Assembly: GCA_022566265.1 (NCBI GenBank)
Contig: JADFJG010000012.1
Location: forward strand, 1-46,821
Reading direction: 5' to 3'
Origin: Pseudomonadota bacterium
GTDB lineage: Bacteria > Pseudomonadota > Alphaproteobacteria > SMXQ01
Length of the DNA stretch: 46,821 bases
In this document: positions 775 through 19,919 of the stretch, piece by piece
How positions within the stretch are numbered: the first letter of the stretch is position 1
How the letters are laid out: every line of letters starts with the position of its first letter
Notes under the pieces: generated by a model
The model's input: the letters and a program-made list of their open reading frames with translations, nothing else
Told to the model about the DNA's origin: nothing
Databases searched by the model: none
Made by a program: the position numbers and the translations under genes

Positions 775-4423
<3,649 letters not shown>

Positions 4424-4440
<17 letters not shown>

Positions 4441-4568
4441 GTCGCGGTACTTCGGCTGAAACCATTTGCCCCGGCGCGAGTGTGGGGCGCTGGCGCCACC
4501 GCGTCAAGGAAGGGCGGCGGTGGCGTCGGCGCGCGGCGCGGGCTATATCTCCCCCCTGCCATGATCGA
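4424..4568. repeat. Composite divergent promoter repeat, copy A (L-core-R)
   Basis: The region between the oxoprolinase and the ligase, including the first codons of both. Its left part (to about 4520) matches 6844-6945 at roughly 80 per cent by eye. Its right part (4521-4568) matches 8791-8838 at 45 of 48 bases. A central core, cgcgtcaaggaa, occurs in all three copies (4500, 6924, 8696). Only this copy has both halves, so it is the complete form of the element. Confidence 0.8.
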
Positions 4569-5931
4569 GCGCCCCCCGACCCTTCCGGAAATCGCCAGAG
4601 CGGTGAAACCGGGCAGCCGCGGCGCCAAGCTGCTCGCCGTCCTCGAGCGGCTCGACAAAAGCCAGTGGTGGTCGGGCGAGGCGCTGCGAGAGCATCAGTT
4701 CCGGCAACTCGGCGAATTGCTCGCCCACGCCGCGCGGACCGTGCCTTTCTATCACCAGCGCTTCGAAACCGCCAAGGTCGACGCGGCGGGGCCGATGGGG
4801 CCCGACGTTTGGAGGAAAATCCCGCTGCTCACGCGCAGGGACATCCAGAAAGCCGGGAATAGTTTACGCAGCCGCAAGGTACCGGCGGGCCATGGCAGGC
4901 TTGGCGTGGCCCAGACCTCGGGATCCACCGGCATGCCGGTGAAGCTCAATACCACCGAACGCACCCGATTCCTTTGGAACGCCTTCATGATACGGGACCA
5001 CCTCTGGCATCGCCGCGTCTTCGGCGAGAAATATGCGGCCATCCGTAAGTTCCCAAGTCATGTCGCATCCTATCCGAAGGGGAAACACGCCAAAAGCTGG
5101 TCCCCGGCCATCGGCGGTCTCTTCGGGAGCGGTCCCGCGGCGGGCCTGGGAATCGACGCCAGCGTGAAACAGCAGGCCGAGTGGCTGGGCCGGGAGGATC
5201 CGGTTTATCTTCAGACCTACCCGTCCAATCTCCGGCATCTGGCGGTGTACTGCGAACGCCACGGGATCGAACTGGCGCGGCTTGCGGAGGTCATCACGTT
5301 CGGAGAATTGTTCGATCCGGAAACGCGCGAGATTTGCCGAAGGGTTTGGAATGTGCCGGTGACGGACATGTACAGCTCGGAGGAAGTGGGCTACATCGCG
5401 CTGCAATGCCCCGATCACGCGCATTATCACGTGCAGGCCGAAAATGTCCTGGTAGAGATACTCGATGACGGCGGCGAGCCCTCGGCGCCGGGCGAGATCG
5501 GCAAGGTGGTCGTCACACATTTGCACAATTACGCATCGCCGTTCATTCGTTACGACATCGGCGATTTCGCCGAAGTCGGCGAGGACTGCGCTTGCGGCAG
5601 GCGCCTTCCGGTCCTGCGAAGCATCCTCGGACGGACCCGCAACATGCTCCAGACACCAAGCGGCGATCGCTACTGGCCATTCTTTGGGGCACGAACCTTC
5701 ACCGAGATCGCGCCCATCCTCCAGCATCAGTTCGTGCAAAAGACGGCCGATGTCATCGAAGGCCGCCTTGTCGCCGAACGGGCCTTGACCGAGCACGAAG
5801 AGGAGCGGCTACGCCGGCATATCCTTTCCCGGCTGCCTTACCCGTTCAAACTTGTCTTCACCTACCACGACGAGATTCCCCGGAGCGCCGGCGGCAAGTA
5901 CGAGGACTTTATCTCGGAAATCGCCGGGTGA
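4561..5931 (+). CDS. PaaK/CapK-family AMP-forming acyl-CoA ligase-like protein
   Basis: A 456-residue adenylate-forming enzyme of the phenylacetate-CoA ligase (PaaK/CapK) type. It has the ATP-binding loop QTSGSTGMPVK (residues 118-128), a MYSSEEVG segment, a YDIGDFAEV segment and the family's CACGRRLP motif before the GRTRNML hinge. PaaK enzymes activate an aryl or acyl acid with ATP and load it on CoA; CapK relatives act in polysaccharide pathways, so the substrate is unknown. The ATG at 4561 is chosen because the upstream part of the 1632-residue ORF is antisense to the oxoprolinase. The first three codons (MIE) and 40 upstream bases match those of the amidase at 8831. It converges on the methyltransferase. 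Confidence 0.85.
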   Translation: MIERPPTLPEIARAVKPGSRGAKLLAVLERLDKSQWWSGEALREHQFRQLGELLAHAARTVPFYHQRFETAKVDAAGPMGPDVWRKIPLLTRRDIQKAGNSLRSRKVPAGHGRLGVAQTSGSTGMPVKLNTTERTRFLWNAFMIRDHLWHRRVFGEKYAAIRKFPSHVASYPKGKHAKSWSPAIGGLFGSGPAAGLGIDASVKQQAEWLGREDPVYLQTYPSNLRHLAVYCERHGIELARLAEVITFGELFDPETREICRRVWNVPVTDMYSSEEVGYIALQCPDHAHYHVQAENVLVEILDDGGEPSAPGEIGKVVVTHLHNYASPFIRYDIGDFAEVGEDCACGRRLPVLRSILGRTRNMLQTPSGDRYWPFFGARTFTEIAPILQHQFVQKTADVIEGRLVAERALTEHEEERLRRHILSRLPYPFKLVFTYHDEIPRSAGGKYEDFISEIAG

Positions 5932-5952
5932 ACCACCCGCCGGGCCAGTGCC

Positions 5953-6864
5953 CTACTTTCGCAGAAGGATAATGTAGGCGAAGGCACCCTCCCCCGGCGC
6001 ATACGGCCCGGACGGTCGCGTGCCCATTCGGCGCTCGACGCTGGCCGAATGAAAATGCTCGACCGAAAACCCGCCTCCCTCGAAGAGCTCGACGAGCTCC
6101 TCGCGCGACCGAACGGGGTGGATCTTGAGGCGCTCGGTGAAGATGCGCGCTCCTTCCACCAGCTCTTCGGGACTAATATCCAGCGAGTCCTTCACCTTCT
6201 CCGCCTGGCGCGAGACTCTGCCCCGGAAGGCGGCTGCCTGCTCCGCCGTAAATCTCATAAGCTTGCCACTGCTCGCCGGGCGAATGCGGTGGATGGTGAC
6301 GACCTTACCGCCGGGCCGCAGCAGGTTGTGCCATTTCGCCATCAGCCGGCGCCGCTCCGTGGGATCGAAAAACCCCAGAAAGGAATGGGTGCAGATGACG
6401 TCGAATGTCTGGGCGGCGTCGAAATCGAGGATATTGAAGGCCTTCGTGTGGACTTCCGCGCCTTGGCGCTCCGCATACCAGCGACAGAGGAACAACGGCG
6501 TTTCGCACCTGTCGACCACCGTCACATCGCAGGCAGCGTTCTCTTTTCGGTAGGCGTAGAGGATTTGCGCATACATCGAGTAATCGGCGGTGCCCGAGAC
6601 AAGAACGCGCCCGTATCCGCCATCGCCGGCGAGCGCTTCGAGGGTCCGCGAGAAGAACCGGCCGTGCTCGCGCGGGGCCGAGACGATGTCCAGCATCCGC
6701 AGATATTGCCAAATGCCATGGTACCAGGCGCAGTCCTCTCCCGAGACCGGATCTCGGCGGCAAAGATCGGGGGCCATCCGTCTGGCGAGCGGCGCGCTCT
6801 CGGACAACGGCTCCTCGTGCGCCGGTGGCGATCGCGGGGCGGCGTTGTCGTCCATTTCCGGCAT
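5953..6864 (-). CDS. Class I SAM-dependent methyltransferase-like protein
   Basis: A 303-residue protein. The segment GRVLVSGTADYSMYAQIL (about residues 84-101) stands where motif I lies in class I methyltransferases, although the usual GxGxG is loosened to SGTAD. Then follow VTVVDRCETPL (motif II, acidic residue), FDVICTHSFLGFF (motif post-II/IV) and WHNLLRPGGKVVTIHRI (the post-methylation-site LRPGG turn). The substrate is unknown. It lies tail to tail with the PaaK-like gene, 21 bases apart, and the pair may have arrived together. Its first residues (MPEMDDNAAP) nearly repeat those of the 5-oxoprolinase ([10 protein letters not shown]), so its 5' end appears to be copied. Confidence 0.8.
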   Translation of the reverse strand: MPEMDDNAAPRSPPAHEEPLSESAPLARRMAPDLCRRDPVSGEDCAWYHGIWQYLRMLDIVSAPREHGRFFSRTLEALAGDGGYGRVLVSGTADYSMYAQILYAYRKENAACDVTVVDRCETPLFLCRWYAERQGAEVHTKAFNILDFDAAQTFDVICTHSFLGFFDPTERRRLMAKWHNLLRPGGKVVTIHRIRPASSGKLMRFTAEQAAAFRGRVSRQAEKVKDSLDISPEELVEGARIFTERLKIHPVRSREELVELFEGGGFSVEHFHSASVERRMGTRPSGPYAPGEGAFAYIILLRK

Positions 6865-6945
6865 GTCGAGGTTATGTTGCTGAAGCGATTTGACCCGGCG
6901 CGAGTGTGCAGAGGTGCGCCAGCCGCGTCAAGGAACGGCGGCGCC
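6844..6945. repeat. Promoter repeat, copy B (L-core)
   Basis: A direct copy of 4424-4520. Identical stretches include tttccggcatgtcg, which contains the reverse start codon, ccggcgcgagtgtg, and gcgtcaaggaa. It supplies the leader and the first codons of the methyltransferase. Similarity to copy A fades at about 6945, 30 bases before the padR stop. Confidence 0.78.
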
Positions 6946-6974
6946 GGGCAGCGACGCCAGCCACGCAACAGTAG

Positions 6975-7283
6975 TCATAGCGGGTTCTCGAAAAGCTCGC
7001 CAAAAAGCTCCTTGACCTTCCCTTTAGCCGCGCGGAGTGCCGATTTTCCCTTGGGTGTGATCACATAAAATCGACGCATGCGTTTGCCTTCACGTTCTCT
7101 CCAAGACCGAAGGTAGCCTTTCCGTTCGAGGCCGTGGAGCATGGGATAGAGCGTTCCCGGACTCAGCTCATAACCGTGCCTGCGCAGTTCCTCCATCACC
7201 CAGCCGCCATATACCGGGCCTTCGGCGGCATGATGAAGGATATGAAGTCGGATCAGACCGGCGTAAAGGTCCTTGTCATCCAT
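6975..7283 (-). CDS. PadR-family winged-helix transcriptional regulator
   Basis: A 102-residue protein with the PadR N-terminal domain: MDDKDLYAGLIRLHILHHA (helix 1), the recognition region YGGWVMEELRRHGYELSPGTLYPMLHGLERKGYL, and the wing YVITPKGK. The short C-terminal helix is typical of small PadR proteins. The ORF track begins earlier, but homology places the start at the ATG at 7283. AAGGAG lies 19 bases upstream, which is rather far. It follows chrA by 41 bases on the same strand, so it is likely co-transcribed and autoregulatory. The AT-rich palindromes at 8578-8600 upstream of chrA are the obvious candidate operator. Confidence 0.88.
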   Translation of the reverse strand: MDDKDLYAGLIRLHILHHAAEGPVYGGWVMEELRRHGYELSPGTLYPMLHGLERKGYLRSWREREGKRMRRFYVITPKGKSALRAAKGKVKELFGELFENPL

Positions 7284-7324
7284 AGTCCGCGACCGTGGTG
7301 TACTCCTTTGCTTCTCGGCTCGCC

Positions 7325-8566
7325 TCATGCCGGCAAGGGTGGCAGGGTTGCCATTATCCAAGCACCAGCCGCTGTCAGGATCACAACCAACCAAGGCGGC
7401 ACCTTCCAGAAGACAAGCAGCGTGAATGCGGCCAGCGCCAATCCGAAATCGCCCGGCGACAGGATGCCGCTCGTCCATACCGGATTGTAGAGGGCGGCGA
7501 GCAGGAGCCCCACAACCGCCGCATTGATGCCGAGAAGGGCATTCCGCATCACTGTAAAACGCCGCAACGCATCCCAGAACGGAAGGGTGCCGACGACAAG
7601 CAGAAACGACGGCGCGAAGATCGCGAGAAGACAAATGACCGCGCCTACGGCCCCGTTTGGCTGGGGACCCATCACGGTCCCAAGATAGGCCGAGAATGTG
7701 AAGAGTGGGCCGGGAACCGCTTGTGCCGCTCCGTAACCGGCAAGGAAGGCATCGTTCGAAACCCAGCCGGGTGGAACGACTTCGGACTGCAGGAGTGGCA
7801 GGACGACGTGTCCGCCGCCAAATACCAATGATCCAGACCGATAGAAGCTGTCAACCAGAGCGACCGCGTGCGACGGGTAAGCGGCGGCGAGCATCGGCAG
7901 CCCAATCAAACCCGCGAAGAATAATAACAGTGACGCGACCGCAAGGCCGCGGCTGACGTCAACCCCAAGCGTAACGTGTTCCGTACGTGTCTCGGCGCGG
8001 AAAAAGATGAGCCCCACCGCTCCTCCGAAGACGATCACGCCAACCTGAACGAGCGGTATAGGAAAGGCTAGCACGCCGATCGCCGCGAGAACCGCCACGG
8101 TAACGCGTTGCGCGTCCGGACACAGCGTTCGCGCCATCGCCCAGACGGCCTGAGCCACGACTGCCACGGCGACCACTTTTAGCCCGTGAATGGCGCCAGA
8201 ATCGATAACATCCTCAAATGCGACGACGCCATAGCCGAACACCATCAAGGCAATGGCCGACGGCGTTGTAAATGCGAACCAAGCGGCGAACGCACCGAGA
8301 AAGCCAGCTTTCGCCAAACCAATGCCGATACCGACTTGGCTCGAAGCCGGACCGGGTAGGAATTGGCAAAGCGCTACGAGATCGGCGTAGGCGCGTTCCT
8401 CGATCCATTTGCGGCGCGTCACGAACTCGTCATGGAAATATCCGAGATGCGCGATGGGGCCGCCGAAGGAGGTGAACCCCAAACGTAGGAAGGCGAGGAA
8501 GACGCGGGCGGCCGGCACGCGCGCCACAGGCGTCGTATGCAAATTCCGCCGCGATCCTTCAGACAA
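7325..8566 (-). CDS. chrA: ChrA-family chromate transporter
   Basis: A 413-residue membrane protein with two homologous CHR halves. The first carries RLGFTSFGGPIAHLGYF (from residue 28) and QFLPGPASSQVGIGIG. The second carries GSLVFGGGHVVLPLL and AAQAVPGPLFTFSAYLG. About ten to twelve hydrophobic segments are visible. ChrA proteins export chromate from the cytoplasm, using the proton motive force in studied cases; specificity here is inferred from family membership. The start is TTG at 8566, because the frame is closed by TGA just upstream and no good ATG follows; a GTG a few codons in is possible. The downstream padR and the block's position between two repeat cores suggest acquisition as a unit. 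Confidence 0.88.
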   Translation of the reverse strand: MSEGSRRNLHTTPVARVPAARVFLAFLRLGFTSFGGPIAHLGYFHDEFVTRRKWIEERAYADLVALCQFLPGPASSQVGIGIGLAKAGFLGAFAAWFAFTTPSAIALMVFGYGVVAFEDVIDSGAIHGLKVVAVAVVAQAVWAMARTLCPDAQRVTVAVLAAIGVLAFPIPLVQVGVIVFGGAVGLIFFRAETRTEHVTLGVDVSRGLAVASLLLFFAGLIGLPMLAAAYPSHAVALVDSFYRSGSLVFGGGHVVLPLLQSEVVPPGWVSNDAFLAGYGAAQAVPGPLFTFSAYLGTVMGPQPNGAVGAVICLLAIFAPSFLLVVGTLPFWDALRRFTVMRNALLGINAAVVGLLLAALYNPVWTSGILSPGDFGLALAAFTLLVFWKVPPWLVVILTAAGAWIMATLPPLPA

Positions 8567-8577
8567 TGGCTTTTCTC

Positions 8578-8627
8578 ATATATCGATATTCGATATCGAG
8601 ATTCGATTAATAAACGCCATTTGTCAA
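8578..8627 (-). promoter_or_regulatory. chrA-padR promoter with AT-rich palindromic operator (putative PadR site)
   Basis: On the minus strand a perfect TTGACA (8622-8627) lies upstream of two adjoining perfect palindromes, TCGATATCGA (8590-8599) and ATATCGATAT (8580-8589). These end 13 bases before the chrA start. The AT-rich dyad stands out from the GC-rich surroundings and resembles PadR-family operators. A clear -10 at 17 bases is lacking (GAATCT), so the exact promoter is uncertain. Binding by the neighbouring PadR protein is inference. Confidence 0.6.
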
Positions 8628-8685
8628 TTGGGCTCTTAAGGCGTGACATCTCACAGGCAAGTCGAGGTGCCGCAACGAATAAATG

Positions 8686-8838
8686 TGGGATCTGCCGCCG
8701 CCTCAAGGAACGGCGGGGTGGGGTGTGGGAAAGACGCCCCCACCCATCCTCCGGGACCGGACCGGCCCACTGAACGCCCGCCGGCCCGGCTGGCGCCGGC
8801 GCGCGGCGCGGTCTATATATCCCCCCTGCCATGATCGA
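8686..8838. repeat. Promoter repeat, copy C (core-R)
   Basis: Contains the core (gcctcaaggaacggcgg, 8699-8715) and, after about 75 unrelated bases, a 48-base block (8791-8838) that differs from 4521-4568 at three positions. The block runs through the ribosome binding region into the first eight bases of the amidase gene. Together, copies B and C look like one copy of the element interrupted at the core by padR-chrA. Confidence 0.75.
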
Positions 8839-9559
8839 ATACCCCTCGCCCAATTTCGGCCCCCGGCCCACCGATGCCGTCATCGACATGCTGGTGGTCC
8901 ATTACACCGGCATGGCGGGCGCCGAGGAAGCGCTGGCGCGGCTGTGCGATCCCGGATCACAAGTCAGCGCCCATTATGTGATCGATGAGGACGGCACGAC
9001 CTATCGCCTCGTCGATGAGGAGGAACGCGCCTGGCACGCCGGGGAGGCCTCCTGGGCCGGGGCCACGAACATCAACGACGTCTCCATCGGCGTCGAGTTG
9101 GTCAATCCCGGCCATGAGTTCGGCTACCTGCCTTTCACCCAGGCGCAGATGGACGTGTTCACCGATCTCGCCACCGGCGTGATCGGACGCCACCCGATCC
9201 CGCCCAAGCGCGTGCTCGGCCATTCGGACGTGGCGCCGGGGCGCAAGACCGATCCCGGCGAGTTGTTCGACTGGCGGGGCGCGGCGCATGCCGGCATCGG
9301 CCTTTGGCCCGAGGTGCCGGGCGCGGTGGATGATGGCGAAATCCTCTTCGCGCCGGGCGAGAAGGGACCGGTCATCGTCGAGATCCAGCGCCAGCTTGCC
9401 GCCTTCGGCTATGGCGTCGGCATGGGCGGTATCCTCGATAACCCGACCCGCGAAGTGGTGGCCGCGTTCCAGCGCCACTTCCGGCCCGAGAAGATCGACG
9501 GCGTCATCGACCGCGCGACCCTGCGCCGCCTCGAGGCCTTGATCCGCCTTACCGCTTGA
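8831..9559 (+). CDS. N-acetylmuramoyl-L-alanine amidase, AmpD/amidase_2 type, with C-terminal peptidoglycan-binding domain
   Basis: A 242-residue zinc amidase. Expected metal and catalytic residues are present: His24 in VVHYTGM, Glu89 in IGVEL, and His131, Lys139 and Asp141 in LGHSDVAPGRKTDPG. From about residue 180 a peptidoglycan-binding_1 repeat follows (VIVEIQRQLAAFGY and VVAAFQRHF). The family cleaves the lactyl-L-Ala bond in muropeptides or peptidoglycan. No signal peptide is visible, which points to a cytosolic AmpD-like recycling role, although the binding domain is more usual in AmiD-like periplasmic enzymes. Its stop codon lies inside the 20-bp tandem repeat that forms the rnpB promoter. 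Confidence 0.9.
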   Translation: MIEYPSPNFGPRPTDAVIDMLVVHYTGMAGAEEALARLCDPGSQVSAHYVIDEDGTTYRLVDEEERAWHAGEASWAGATNINDVSIGVELVNPGHEFGYLPFTQAQMDVFTDLATGVIGRHPIPPKRVLGHSDVAPGRKTDPGELFDWRGAAHAGIGLWPEVPGAVDDGEILFAPGEKGPVIVEIQRQLAAFGYGVGMGGILDNPTREVVAAFQRHFRPEKIDGVIDRATLRRLEALIRLTA

Positions 9560-14473: not shown

Positions 14474-15965
14474 ACTGTTGAGCGGTGAGGCACCCGGGTT
14501 GGAATCGAACACGGCGGCAAGGGATGTGGAAATTCTCGGCCTGACCTCCGATTCCCGCGAGGTCCGGCCCGGCTATCTGTTCGCCGCGATCAAGGGAAGC
14601 CGCGCCGACGGCGGGGATTTCATTGGCGATGCCCTGGCCCGGGGCGCCGCCGCCGTCCTCGGCCCGCCGGGCACGCGCGTCCCCGAGTCCATGATCGAGC
14701 CAGGGTCGCGGCCGGTCCCGGTGATCGCCGATGACAATCCGCGCCGCCGGCTTGCCCTGATGGCGGCGCGTTTTTTCGGCCCCCAGCCCGCCACCATCGC
14801 GGCGGTGACCGGCACCAACGGCAAGACCTCGGTGGTCTCCTTCCTGCGCCAGATCTGGTCGCGCCTCGACCGAAGGGCGGCCAGCCTCGGCACCCTTGGC
14901 CTCGACGCGCCGGATATCGACGTCGCCGGCGTCACCGACCCGGGGGCGCTGACGACCCCCGATCCGGTGGCGCTGCACCACTGCCTCAACGATCTCAAGC
15001 AAAGCGGCGTCGATCACCTGGCGCTCGAGGCATCGAGCCACGGGTTGGATCAGTACCGGCTCGACGGCGTTCGGGTGACGGCGGCGGCCTTCACCAACAT
15101 CTCGCGCGATCATCTCGACTATCACGGCACCAAAGAGGCCTATCTCGCGGCCAAGGTCCGGCTGTTCGACACCATCCTGGCGCCGGATGGCGTCGCCGTG
15201 CTCAACGCCGACGTCCCGGAATTCGGGCCGCTCAAGGAACGCTGCGAGGCGCGCGGGCAGCGCGTCATCGGTTTCGGGCGGAACGGCGAAGACGTGAAGG
15301 TGATCGGGCTCGATCCTCTCGCCGACGGACTGAAGCTCGACCTCGAGATCGCCGGCGGGCGATTCGCCGTAAGGCTCGGGTTGGTCGGCGACTTCCAGGC
15401 GATGAACGCGGTTTGCGCCCTCGCCCTCGCCATCGCCACCGGCGAGGACGCCGAGGCGTCGGTTAGCGCGCTTGCCGAGCTTGAAGGGGCGCCCGGACGC
15501 ATGGAGCTTGCCGCGCGCCACCCCAACGGCGCCGCCATATACGTCGATTACGCCCATACCCCGGACGCCCTGGCCCAGGTCCTCGGCGCGCTCAGGCCCC
15601 ATCTCACGGGTAGGCTTGGCGTCGTCTTCGGCTGCGGCGGCGACCGCGACCCGGGCAAGCGCCCGGAAATGGGAAGGATCGCCACCGAGCTCGCCGATCT
15701 CGTCGTCATCACCGACGACAACCCCCGCGGCGAGGACGCCGCCCATATCCGCCGCCAGATCCTCGACGCCGCGCCCGGCGCGCGCGAGATCGGCGACCGC
15801 GCCCGGGCCATCAATGAGACCATCGCCATCCTCGAGCCGGACGATATCTTGGTGGTGGCGGGCAAGGGTCACGAGACGGGCCAGATCGTCGGCGGCGAGA
15901 TCATTCCCTTCGACGACCGCGATCAGGTGCGACGCGCGGTCGCCGGCATCGGAGGCGCGTCATGA
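14460..15965 (+). CDS. murE: UDP-MurNAc-L-Ala-D-Glu:meso-diaminopimelate ligase
   Basis: A Mur ligase of about 501 residues that adds the third stem amino acid. Motifs: GLTSDSREVRPGYLFAA (UMP-binding N-domain), GTNGKTS (P-loop), YVDYAHTPDAL and the ITDDNPRGED segment. The DNPR tetrad is the known determinant for meso-diaminopimelate over lysine, which fits a Gram-negative wall. The ORF track opens upstream inside ftsI. No ATG fits, and the best start by homology is TTG at 14460 (reading MRLIELLSGE), overlapping the ftsI stop. The stop overlaps murF by four bases. Confidence 0.94.
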   Translation: MRLIELLSGEAPGLESNTAARDVEILGLTSDSREVRPGYLFAAIKGSRADGGDFIGDALARGAAAVLGPPGTRVPESMIEPGSRPVPVIADDNPRRRLALMAARFFGPQPATIAAVTGTNGKTSVVSFLRQIWSRLDRRAASLGTLGLDAPDIDVAGVTDPGALTTPDPVALHHCLNDLKQSGVDHLALEASSHGLDQYRLDGVRVTAAAFTNISRDHLDYHGTKEAYLAAKVRLFDTILAPDGVAVLNADVPEFGPLKERCEARGQRVIGFGRNGEDVKVIGLDPLADGLKLDLEIAGGRFAVRLGLVGDFQAMNAVCALALAIATGEDAEASVSALAELEGAPGRMELAARHPNGAAIYVDYAHTPDALAQVLGALRPHLTGRLGVVFGCGGDRDPGKRPEMGRIATELADLVVITDDNPRGEDAAHIRRQILDAAPGAREIGDRARAINETIAILEPDDILVVAGKGHETGQIVGGEIIPFDDRDQVRRAVAGIGGAS

Positions 15966-18515: not shown

Positions 18516-19919
18516 ATGATTCCCTTACCTAGCGCGTCGGGCTCGAAGATCGCCGTGCTCGGCCTCGGCCACTCGGGATTTGCCGCGGCGCGGGCGCTGG
18601 TCGCCAGCGGCGCCCGTGTGCTGGCGTGGGACGACGACGGGGACAAGCGCCAAGCGGCGGTGGCGGCCGAGGTGCCGATCGCCGATCTCTACGAAACCGA
18701 TCTCTCCGCCGTCGCGACCCTCGTGCTCAGTCCCGGGATTCCCCACACCCATCCGAAACCCCATCCGGTCGCGGCGAAGGCGCGCGCCGGCGGGCTCGAG
18801 ATCATCTGCGACATCGAGCTCATGGCGCGGGCCGAGACCGGCGCCCGGTTCATCGGCGTCACCGGCACCAACGGCAAGTCCACGGTCACGGCGCTGATCG
18901 GCCACATCTTCGAAGCCGCCGGCAAGAAGGCGGCGATCGGCGGCAATTTCGGGCCGCCGGTGCTGGCGCTCGATCCGCTCGGCGCCTCGGGCACCTATAT
19001 CCTCGAACTCTCGTCGTATCAACTCGAGCTCATCGTCTCGGACATGTTCGACATCACGGTGTTGATCAACATCTCGCCCGACCACATCGACCGTCACGGC
19101 ACCATGGATGGTTACGTCGCCGCCAAGCGCCGGGTCTTCGACCGCGGCCACGCCAACGCCATCGCCGTCATCGGCGTCGACGACGAGCACTGCCGGAAGA
19201 TCCGCGCCCTCCTCGAAGCCCGGGACGATCGCAGGATCATCCCGATCTCGGCCGACGGTCCGGTGGCCGGCGGGGTCTATGTGCTTGACGGCGAACTCTA
19301 TGACGACACCGAGGGGCGGGACGCGCGCATCGGGACGCTAACCACCGCCAAGGCGCTTCCCGGCGCCCACAATTGGCAGAACGCGGCCTGCGCTTTCGCC
19401 GTCGCCCGCGCCGTGGGAATCGGCACCGACCTCATCGCCGCCGCGCTTTCGAGCTTCCCCGGCCTGCCCCACCGCCAGGAGCTGGTCGGCACCGTCGATG
19501 GCGTCCGTTACGTCAACGACAGCAAGGCGACCAACGCCGCGGCCGCGGCCAAGGCGCTGGCGTGCTATCGGGACATCTATTGGATCGCCGGCGGCGAGCC
19601 CAAGGAAGGCGGCATCGCGTCGCTCGAGCCGCTTTTCCCCAGCATCGTCCATGCCTTCCTCATCGGCGAGGCGGCGGAGTCCTTCGCCCGATGCTTGGAC
19701 GGCAAGGTCGCCTACACCATCGCCGGCGAGCTGGAAACCGCCCTCGACGGCGCCCGCCGGCTGGCCGCCAGCGAGGCCCGCGCCGACGCCGTCGTGCTGC
19801 TTTCCCCGGCCGCGGCGTCGTTCGACCAGTTCGCCAATTTCGGAGCCAGGGGCGACGCCTTCCGCCGCCTGGTGCTGGCGTTTTCCGGTGAGCCCGGGGC
19901 AACGGAGCGGCGCCAATGA
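18516..19919 (+). CDS. murD: UDP-MurNAc-L-alanine:D-glutamate ligase MurD
   Basis: A 467-residue cytosolic Mur ligase adding D-glutamate. The N-domain has AVLGLGHSGFAAARAL, followed by LVLSPGIP, the ATP loop GVTGTNGKSTVTALIG, the GNFGPPVL and LELSSYQLE segments and the C-domain YVNDSKATNAAAAAKAL, all typical of MurD. The C-terminal LLSPAAASFDQFANFGARGDAF is the usual conserved end. It starts 17 bases after mraY and overlaps ftsW by four bases (ATGA). Confidence 0.96.
   Translation: MIPLPSASGSKIAVLGLGHSGFAAARALVASGARVLAWDDDGDKRQAAVAAEVPIADLYETDLSAVATLVLSPGIPHTHPKPHPVAAKARAGGLEIICDIELMARAETGARFIGVTGTNGKSTVTALIGHIFEAAGKKAAIGGNFGPPVLALDPLGASGTYILELSSYQLELIVSDMFDITVLINISPDHIDRHGTMDGYVAAKRRVFDRGHANAIAVIGVDDEHCRKIRALLEARDDRRIIPISADGPVAGGVYVLDGELYDDTEGRDARIGTLTTAKALPGAHNWQNAACAFAVARAVGIGTDLIAAALSSFPGLPHRQELVGTVDGVRYVNDSKATNAAAAAKALACYRDIYWIAGGEPKEGGIASLEPLFPSIVHAFLIGEAAESFARCLDGKVAYTIAGELETALDGARRLAASEARADAVVLLSPAAASFDQFANFGARGDAFRRLVLAFSGEPGATERRQ

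Follow-up and report, generated by a model that had tools for sequence, protein, structure and literature searches.

A duplicated divergent promoter junction around a ligase–methyltransferase insert and the probable capture of its promoters and first codons by incoming genes

It is an open question how a new host comes to express the genes that it acquires, and laboratory work points to promoter capture by duplication; to our knowledge, natural cases in which both ends are preserved have rarely been laid out clearly. The locus analyzed here bears on this question. The window, that is, the whole stretch of DNA under analysis (46.8 kb), corresponds to contig C138 of an alphaproteobacterial draft genome (3.55 Mb in 173 contigs), and its genes of interest are ordered hyu (−), lig (+), mt (−), padR (−), chrA (−), and ami (+). 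The resident gene on the left of the junction, hyu (775-4440, minus strand), encodes a 5-oxoprolinase/hydantoinase A+B fusion (Pfam Hydantoinase_B 2e-207, Hydantoinase_A 3e-111), and its orthologue adjoins the amidase gene in many alphaproteobacteria. The resident gene on the right, ami (8831-9559, plus strand), encodes an N-acetylmuramoyl-L-alanine amidase with a peptidoglycan-binding domain (Pfam Amidase_2 1e-35, PG_binding_1 2e-12). Between them lie lig (4561-5931, plus strand), for an adenylate-forming PaaK-like CoA ligase identified by a profile match and by PDB PaaK-like ligases (the NCBIfam DVU1553-family AMP ligase profile matches at 3e-35, under its cut-off); mt (5953-6864, minus strand), for a SAM-dependent methyltransferase (Pfam Methyltransf_25 5e-8); a PadR-family regulator gene (6975-7283, minus strand; Pfam PadR 3e-18); and chrA (7325-8566, minus strand), for a chromate efflux transporter (Pfam Chromate_transp 1e-72; TIGR00937 7e-98, above its cut-off). 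Two matches to RNA elements in the region are sub-threshold and attributable to chance. Elsewhere in the window, a 76-bp direct repeat of 76% identity (15095-15170 and 19067-19142) lies within a cell-wall gene cluster and probably reflects related Mur ligase genes.

The promoter regions of hyu, lig, mt, and ami represent a duplication of one divergent junction, J. The first copy, J1 (4413-4581, as delimited by alignment), is a whole divergent promoter junction that includes the first nine hyu codons and the first seven ligase codons. The left half and core of a second copy form J2 (6837-6943), which is 82% identical to 4413-4519 over 108 columns (E = 4e-22), and the right half of that second copy, with the amidase promoter-like element and first seven codons, forms J3 (8787-8851), in which 8791-8851 is 87% identical to 4521-4581 (53 of 61 bases; E = 5e-14). 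These left- and right-half pairs rank first and second among the direct repeats of the whole window; their local scores are 115 and 82, respectively, and at other positions of the window neither query scores above 31. In addition, a 20-bp core is found in three places (4498-4517, 6922-6941, and 8697-8716), the last of which matches J2 at 19 of 20 positions and J1 at 17 of 20. The core repeat alone is modest evidence: its score of 35, against a best of 24 elsewhere in one test, was also reached by 1 of 300 random segment comparisons. The three-copy alignment bears out the three related promoter regions noted in a preliminary description of this DNA, with corrected coordinates and a slightly larger extent, and likewise its count of 45 identical bases in 48 for the right half (4521-4568 against 8791-8838). 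The third copy had been described as core plus right half; both are indeed present, but 70 foreign bases (8717-8786), which have no J1 counterpart and appear as a gap in the J1 alignment, separate them. A stem-loop search of this 70-base segment returned an unremarkable z-score.

J matches its own genome only at these three places, the next match having an E value of 0.02 (the genome is a draft, with 5% missing). The element is thus not scattered at unrelated genes, a pattern that had been named as speaking against a local duplication. The ten other genomes searched from this order yielded no real match to J; the four short matches that were read out (in G002, G006, G008, and G009) are GC-rich or coding sequence, carry no promoter and start, and are attributable to chance.

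Both halves of the junction run past start codons into coding sequence, as the preliminary description had proposed. The left half holds the starts and first codons of hyu and mt (nine hyu codons), with agreeing start codons and the residues MPE-DDN-A common to both proteins in the same frame. The right half holds the starts and first seven codons of lig and ami, whose products begin MIERPPT and MIEYPSP, respectively, with MIE-P in common, in frame and again with agreeing start codons. As a rule, members of the amidase family start with variants of (M)IERPSPN, and the MIERPP of the ligase therefore points to an amidase origin. Relatives of the ligase have unrelated, variable N-terminal tails, and their conserved block corresponds to the ligase from residue 8, directly after the end of J; in relatives of the methyltransferase the conserved block starts a few residues past the end of J. 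The alignments with these relatives indicate that the copied, junction-derived codons (1-7 of lig and, by N-terminal alignment, 1-9 of mt) replace the variable N-terminal tails of the two families. No ATG, GTG, or TTG occurs in lig between residue 1 and residue 15, which is inside the conserved block, and the ATG at 4561 is therefore its only plausible start. For mt, a downstream TTG at codon 20 is a possible alternative start. Since the N-terminal tails of hyu proteins also vary, the direction of copying from hyu to mt rests on parsimony.

The arrangement of the halves is that expected of captured promoters: lig lies directly behind an amidase-type half and mt directly behind a hyu-type half, while hyu and ami each keep a half with a start codon. 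The putative hyu promoter (4479-4507, minus strand) comprises a −35 element TTGACG (4502-4507), a 17-nt spacer, and a −10 element CACACT (4479-4484), followed by 38 nt to the ATG. Its hexamers and spacing recur in J2 as the candidate mt promoter (6903-6931, minus strand; −10 at 6903-6908, −35 at 6926-6931), and there the spacer differs from that of J1 by two compensating 1-bp indels, such that the 17-nt spacing is kept. On the other side, an amidase-derived promoter-like unit ahead of lig (4520-4548, plus strand), recognized by eye, has a weak −35 GTGGCG, a 17-nt spacer, and a −10-like CTATAT, with 12 nt to the ATG. The same layout is seen in J3, where CTATAT (8813-8818) also stands 12 nt from the amidase ATG; the weak −35-like hexamer reads GTGGCG or CTGGCG across the right halves. 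The −10 elements are too weak to satisfy the rule of a consensus promoter scan, which accordingly reported no site in J, and the assignment of these putative promoters, including the captured copies ahead of lig and mt, rests on the conservation of hexamers and spacing. Ahead of the start codons of hyu, lig, mt, and ami, no Shine-Dalgarno-like sequence is visible. Thus, of what the two incoming genes had been proposed to gain, the in-frame copies ahead of lig and mt agree with a gain of resident promoter regions and first codons, but a gain of resident ribosome binding sites is not supported. Transcription usually begins 6-8 nt behind the −10 element. A start at that distance from CTATAT would leave a leader of only ~5 bases. 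The right half may thus combine promoter and start codon for messages that are almost leaderless, a type known in alphaproteobacteria (PMC7566282).

The two pairs of inserted genes appear to differ in age of arrival. The first insert (4582-6836; 2,255 bp) contains the convergent bodies of lig and mt and reaches from the J1 match to the J2 match. The second (6944-8696; ~1.75 kb) contains padR-chrA with its own AT-rich upstream region and is flanked by the 20-bp core. The GC content at third codon positions (GC3) falls stepwise from the resident genes (hyu, 0.90; amidase, 0.85) to the first pair (ligase, 0.77; methyltransferase, 0.79) and then to the second (chrA, 0.68; padR, 0.59). In the core, J2 and J3 agree against J1 at two sites, and J1 and J3 against J2 at none; the bases common to J2 and J3 fit one second copy that was later split by padR-chrA. 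Base composition and core substitutions place the ligase–methyltransferase pair first and padR-chrA second, in line with the earlier proposal that the former lies between copies 1 and 2 and the latter inside copy 2, at its core. The region upstream of padR-chrA (8567-8696) has a GC content of 44%. Within it, 8567-8632 contains TTGACA on the minus strand together with tandem, partly palindromic ATATCGATATTCG/ATATCGAGATTCG repeats, which could be a candidate PadR operator.

The incoming pair is foreign to this order, as judged from its lower GC3 and from the other ten genomes of the order, in which no relatives of lig or mt were found. The closest ligase relative is 52% identical. A viral origin of the ligase was considered and rejected, no relative being present in viral contigs. 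Elsewhere in the class the two genes adjoin one another, in convergent orientation in G205 and G011 and in tandem in G176 and G272. PaaK-like ligase and methyltransferase genes recur in alphaproteobacteria (L179-L182), and in G176 and G272 the pair stands beside genes for a chorismate-binding enzyme (Pfam match in G176) and an unknown 261-aa protein, surroundings that suggest an undescribed small biosynthetic cluster.

What did the junction look like before the insertions? An ancestral direct oxoprolinase/amidase junction had been assumed. Among ~72 distinct junctions in which hyu and the amidase gene are divergent, ~60 carry terB-dnaJ and usually EamA transporter genes between them, and this oxoprolinase/terB-dnaJ/EamA/amidase neighborhood is widely conserved in alphaproteobacteria, with variable cargo gathering next to the oxoprolinase gene. 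The only direct junction found is that of G021, a genome of another family, in which hyu and ami stand back to back, 90 bp apart. In the window's own family, none of the five resolved junctions (G003, G004, G005, G008, and G010) contains terB, and a terB search of the window's own genome returned a weak DnaJ-region match only. A direct hyu/ami junction is therefore plausible in this lineage. The assumed ancestral state finds a counterpart in G021, but most relatives carry terB and EamA between the two genes; a direct junction would accordingly be ancestral to this lineage only. The single same-genus genome examined gave no amidase match and a weak oxoprolinase match. Because no close relative with an empty J was found, we infer the preinsertion state.

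A junction duplication of this type is present in 2 of the ~72 distinct junctions, that of the window and that of G026, a genome of another family whose oxoprolinase sequence had ranked as nearest in the first comparison. In G026 (L049, reverse complement 1064-4629), a 3.2-kb insert at the hyu junction lies between copies of a 167/170-bp segment with 75% identity. Its cargo encodes a 177-aa protein, two DUF1326 proteins, and a PpoB2 copper-chaperone-family protein. On the hyu side, the copy closes with the nine initial terB codons and continues into a 33-aa dead frame; the other copy runs into the real terB. The second copy contains no hyu codons, its start lying 115 bp upstream of that gene. 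Start-codon capture is a possible by-product of such an insertion, not a necessity. Taken together, the window and G026 indicate that insertion with target duplication has occurred at this junction at least twice. With only 2 of ~72 junctions affected, it is not a general rule of insertion there, and such a rule was rejected: tandem EamA paralogues, a minisatellite (L116), and a reverse-transcriptase neighborhood (L063) account for the other repeats. Our survey of 1.33 Mb of neighborhoods, done without gene calling, found no further cases, and older ones would be hidden by erosion. One candidate from the wider survey, L152, proved to be a palindromic dispersed-type repeat instead. Locus L063 (from G010) has a 127-bp direct repeat of 97% identity (1473-1599 and 1831-1957) between the oxoprolinase gene and a reverse-transcriptase gene (RVT_1, 2025-3341).

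The history that we consider probable is an insertion with long target duplication and double promoter capture, followed by a padR-chrA split of J2. The resident hyu and ami genes would once have been divergent across a single short promoter region J of ~170 bp. Foreign, convergent ligase and methyltransferase genes would have entered J, leaving at each end a direct copy of J that extended past both start codons. The outer copies would still serve hyu and ami, while the ligase would have obtained its promoter and seven initial codons from the inner half of J1, and the methyltransferase its promoter and initial codons from the inner half of J2. A later insertion of padR-chrA, with its own upstream region, into the J2 core would have left the 20-bp core repeat and separated the half of J2 that precedes the methyltransferase from the half that precedes the amidase. 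The long duplication would have arisen together with the insertion, possibly by fill-in of a widely staggered break while the foreign DNA was joined; alternatively, a tandem duplication may have had its redundant middle replaced, and the data would fit either route. No position within a compact divergent promoter is neutral to insertion, which would explain why duplications are seen at such a site: insertions may survive here since the copied target spares both resident promoters.

The possible alternative that we take most seriously, although we hold it less probable, is that the event had two steps, with a larger tandem hyu-J-ami duplication whose convergent middle was then replaced by ligase–methyltransferase via illegitimate or one-sided homologous recombination, giving the same final sequence. 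The geometry fits, as the inner ami-> <-hyu is now lig-> <-mt. Spontaneous tandem duplications that provide promoter capture for a transferred gene (PMC11111574) and homology-facilitated illegitimate recombination (PMC3240628, PMC5361080) are both documented, the former experimentally. However, this route requires a pair of breakpoints that each fall only a few codons from a native start, the middle contains no further hyu or ami remnants, and the second copy in G026 starts 115 bp upstream of hyu without hyu codons. We regard it as improbable that ligase–methyltransferase came with promoters of its own and gained J later, by a separate recombination or gene conversion at each end. The halves differ in identity (82% versus 87%), which could mean two dates, but 19 of 108 and 8 of 61 differing columns could easily diverge to this degree by chance; a single event covers both ends, and J1 is whole and contiguous.

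It is very improbable that J belongs to a family of mobile promoters or repeats dispersed in the genome and landed three times at this locus. Mobile promoters and REP-type elements do exist, and the surveyed locus L152 carries such a repeat, but copies of J at unrelated places were sought and not found in the genome (5% missing) or in ten other genomes of the order, and the copies include resident coding sequence in frame. Selection for common regulation, with convergent evolution of the promoters, would account for the full conservation of the core promoter hexamers; yet the likeness runs through spacers, leaders, and codons at an E value of 4e-22, and we give this explanation almost no weight. 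A broader proposal follows from the second case, namely that foreign DNA repeatedly enters the short divergent promoter before the oxoprolinase gene and leaves a ~170-bp target copy, the promoter thereby forming a slot that spares both residents and gives a convergent pair its promoter and first codons. We think this unlikely; if true, the near-equal lengths of the duplication in two independent cases (169 and 167/170 bp) would suggest a defined mechanism.

Under the insertion with target duplication, two genes would have been equipped at once, and the joins can be located to the base from the copied codons. Moreover, if long target duplication does rescue insertions in tight divergent promoters, split or doubled divergent junctions would reveal captured genes and their order of arrival elsewhere. 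The new element is the double capture including codons; promoter capture by duplication and serial insertion with remnants were already known.

Comparison with known systems shows where this locus stands. Transposons leave target-site duplications of roughly 2-14 bp, and here too direct repeats of host sequence flank an insert. In contrast to such duplications, the repeat at this locus is ~169 bp, there is no transposase among the genes, and no inverted-repeat pair was found at the insert ends beyond GC-rich noise. Near-identical promoter regions ahead of nonhomologous genes, as seen here, also characterize the putative mobile promoters of Matus-Garcia et al. (2012), in whose account of promoter propagation such regions are reportedly dispersed within one genome, whereas all copies of J are at one site and flank inserts. 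The effector modules of the Vibrio cholerae type VI secretion system arose by serial insertion with remnants, through homology-facilitated illegitimate recombination (PMC5361080). As in those modules, successive foreign segments entered at one site and left remnants of resident sequence, but no resident gene is displaced in the window, and the remnant is a whole promoter junction. Another known case is the experimental system in which promoter capture by tandem duplication activates horizontally transferred genes (Li and Bock; PMC11111574), where, as proposed here, duplication puts a resident promoter before an incoming gene without homologous sequences or a mobile element. Unlike that system, the promoter in the window is divergent, its halves would serve two new genes, and the start and first codons are included; and in contrast to a laboratory selection, the case described here is natural and old, its copies having diverged by 13-18%.
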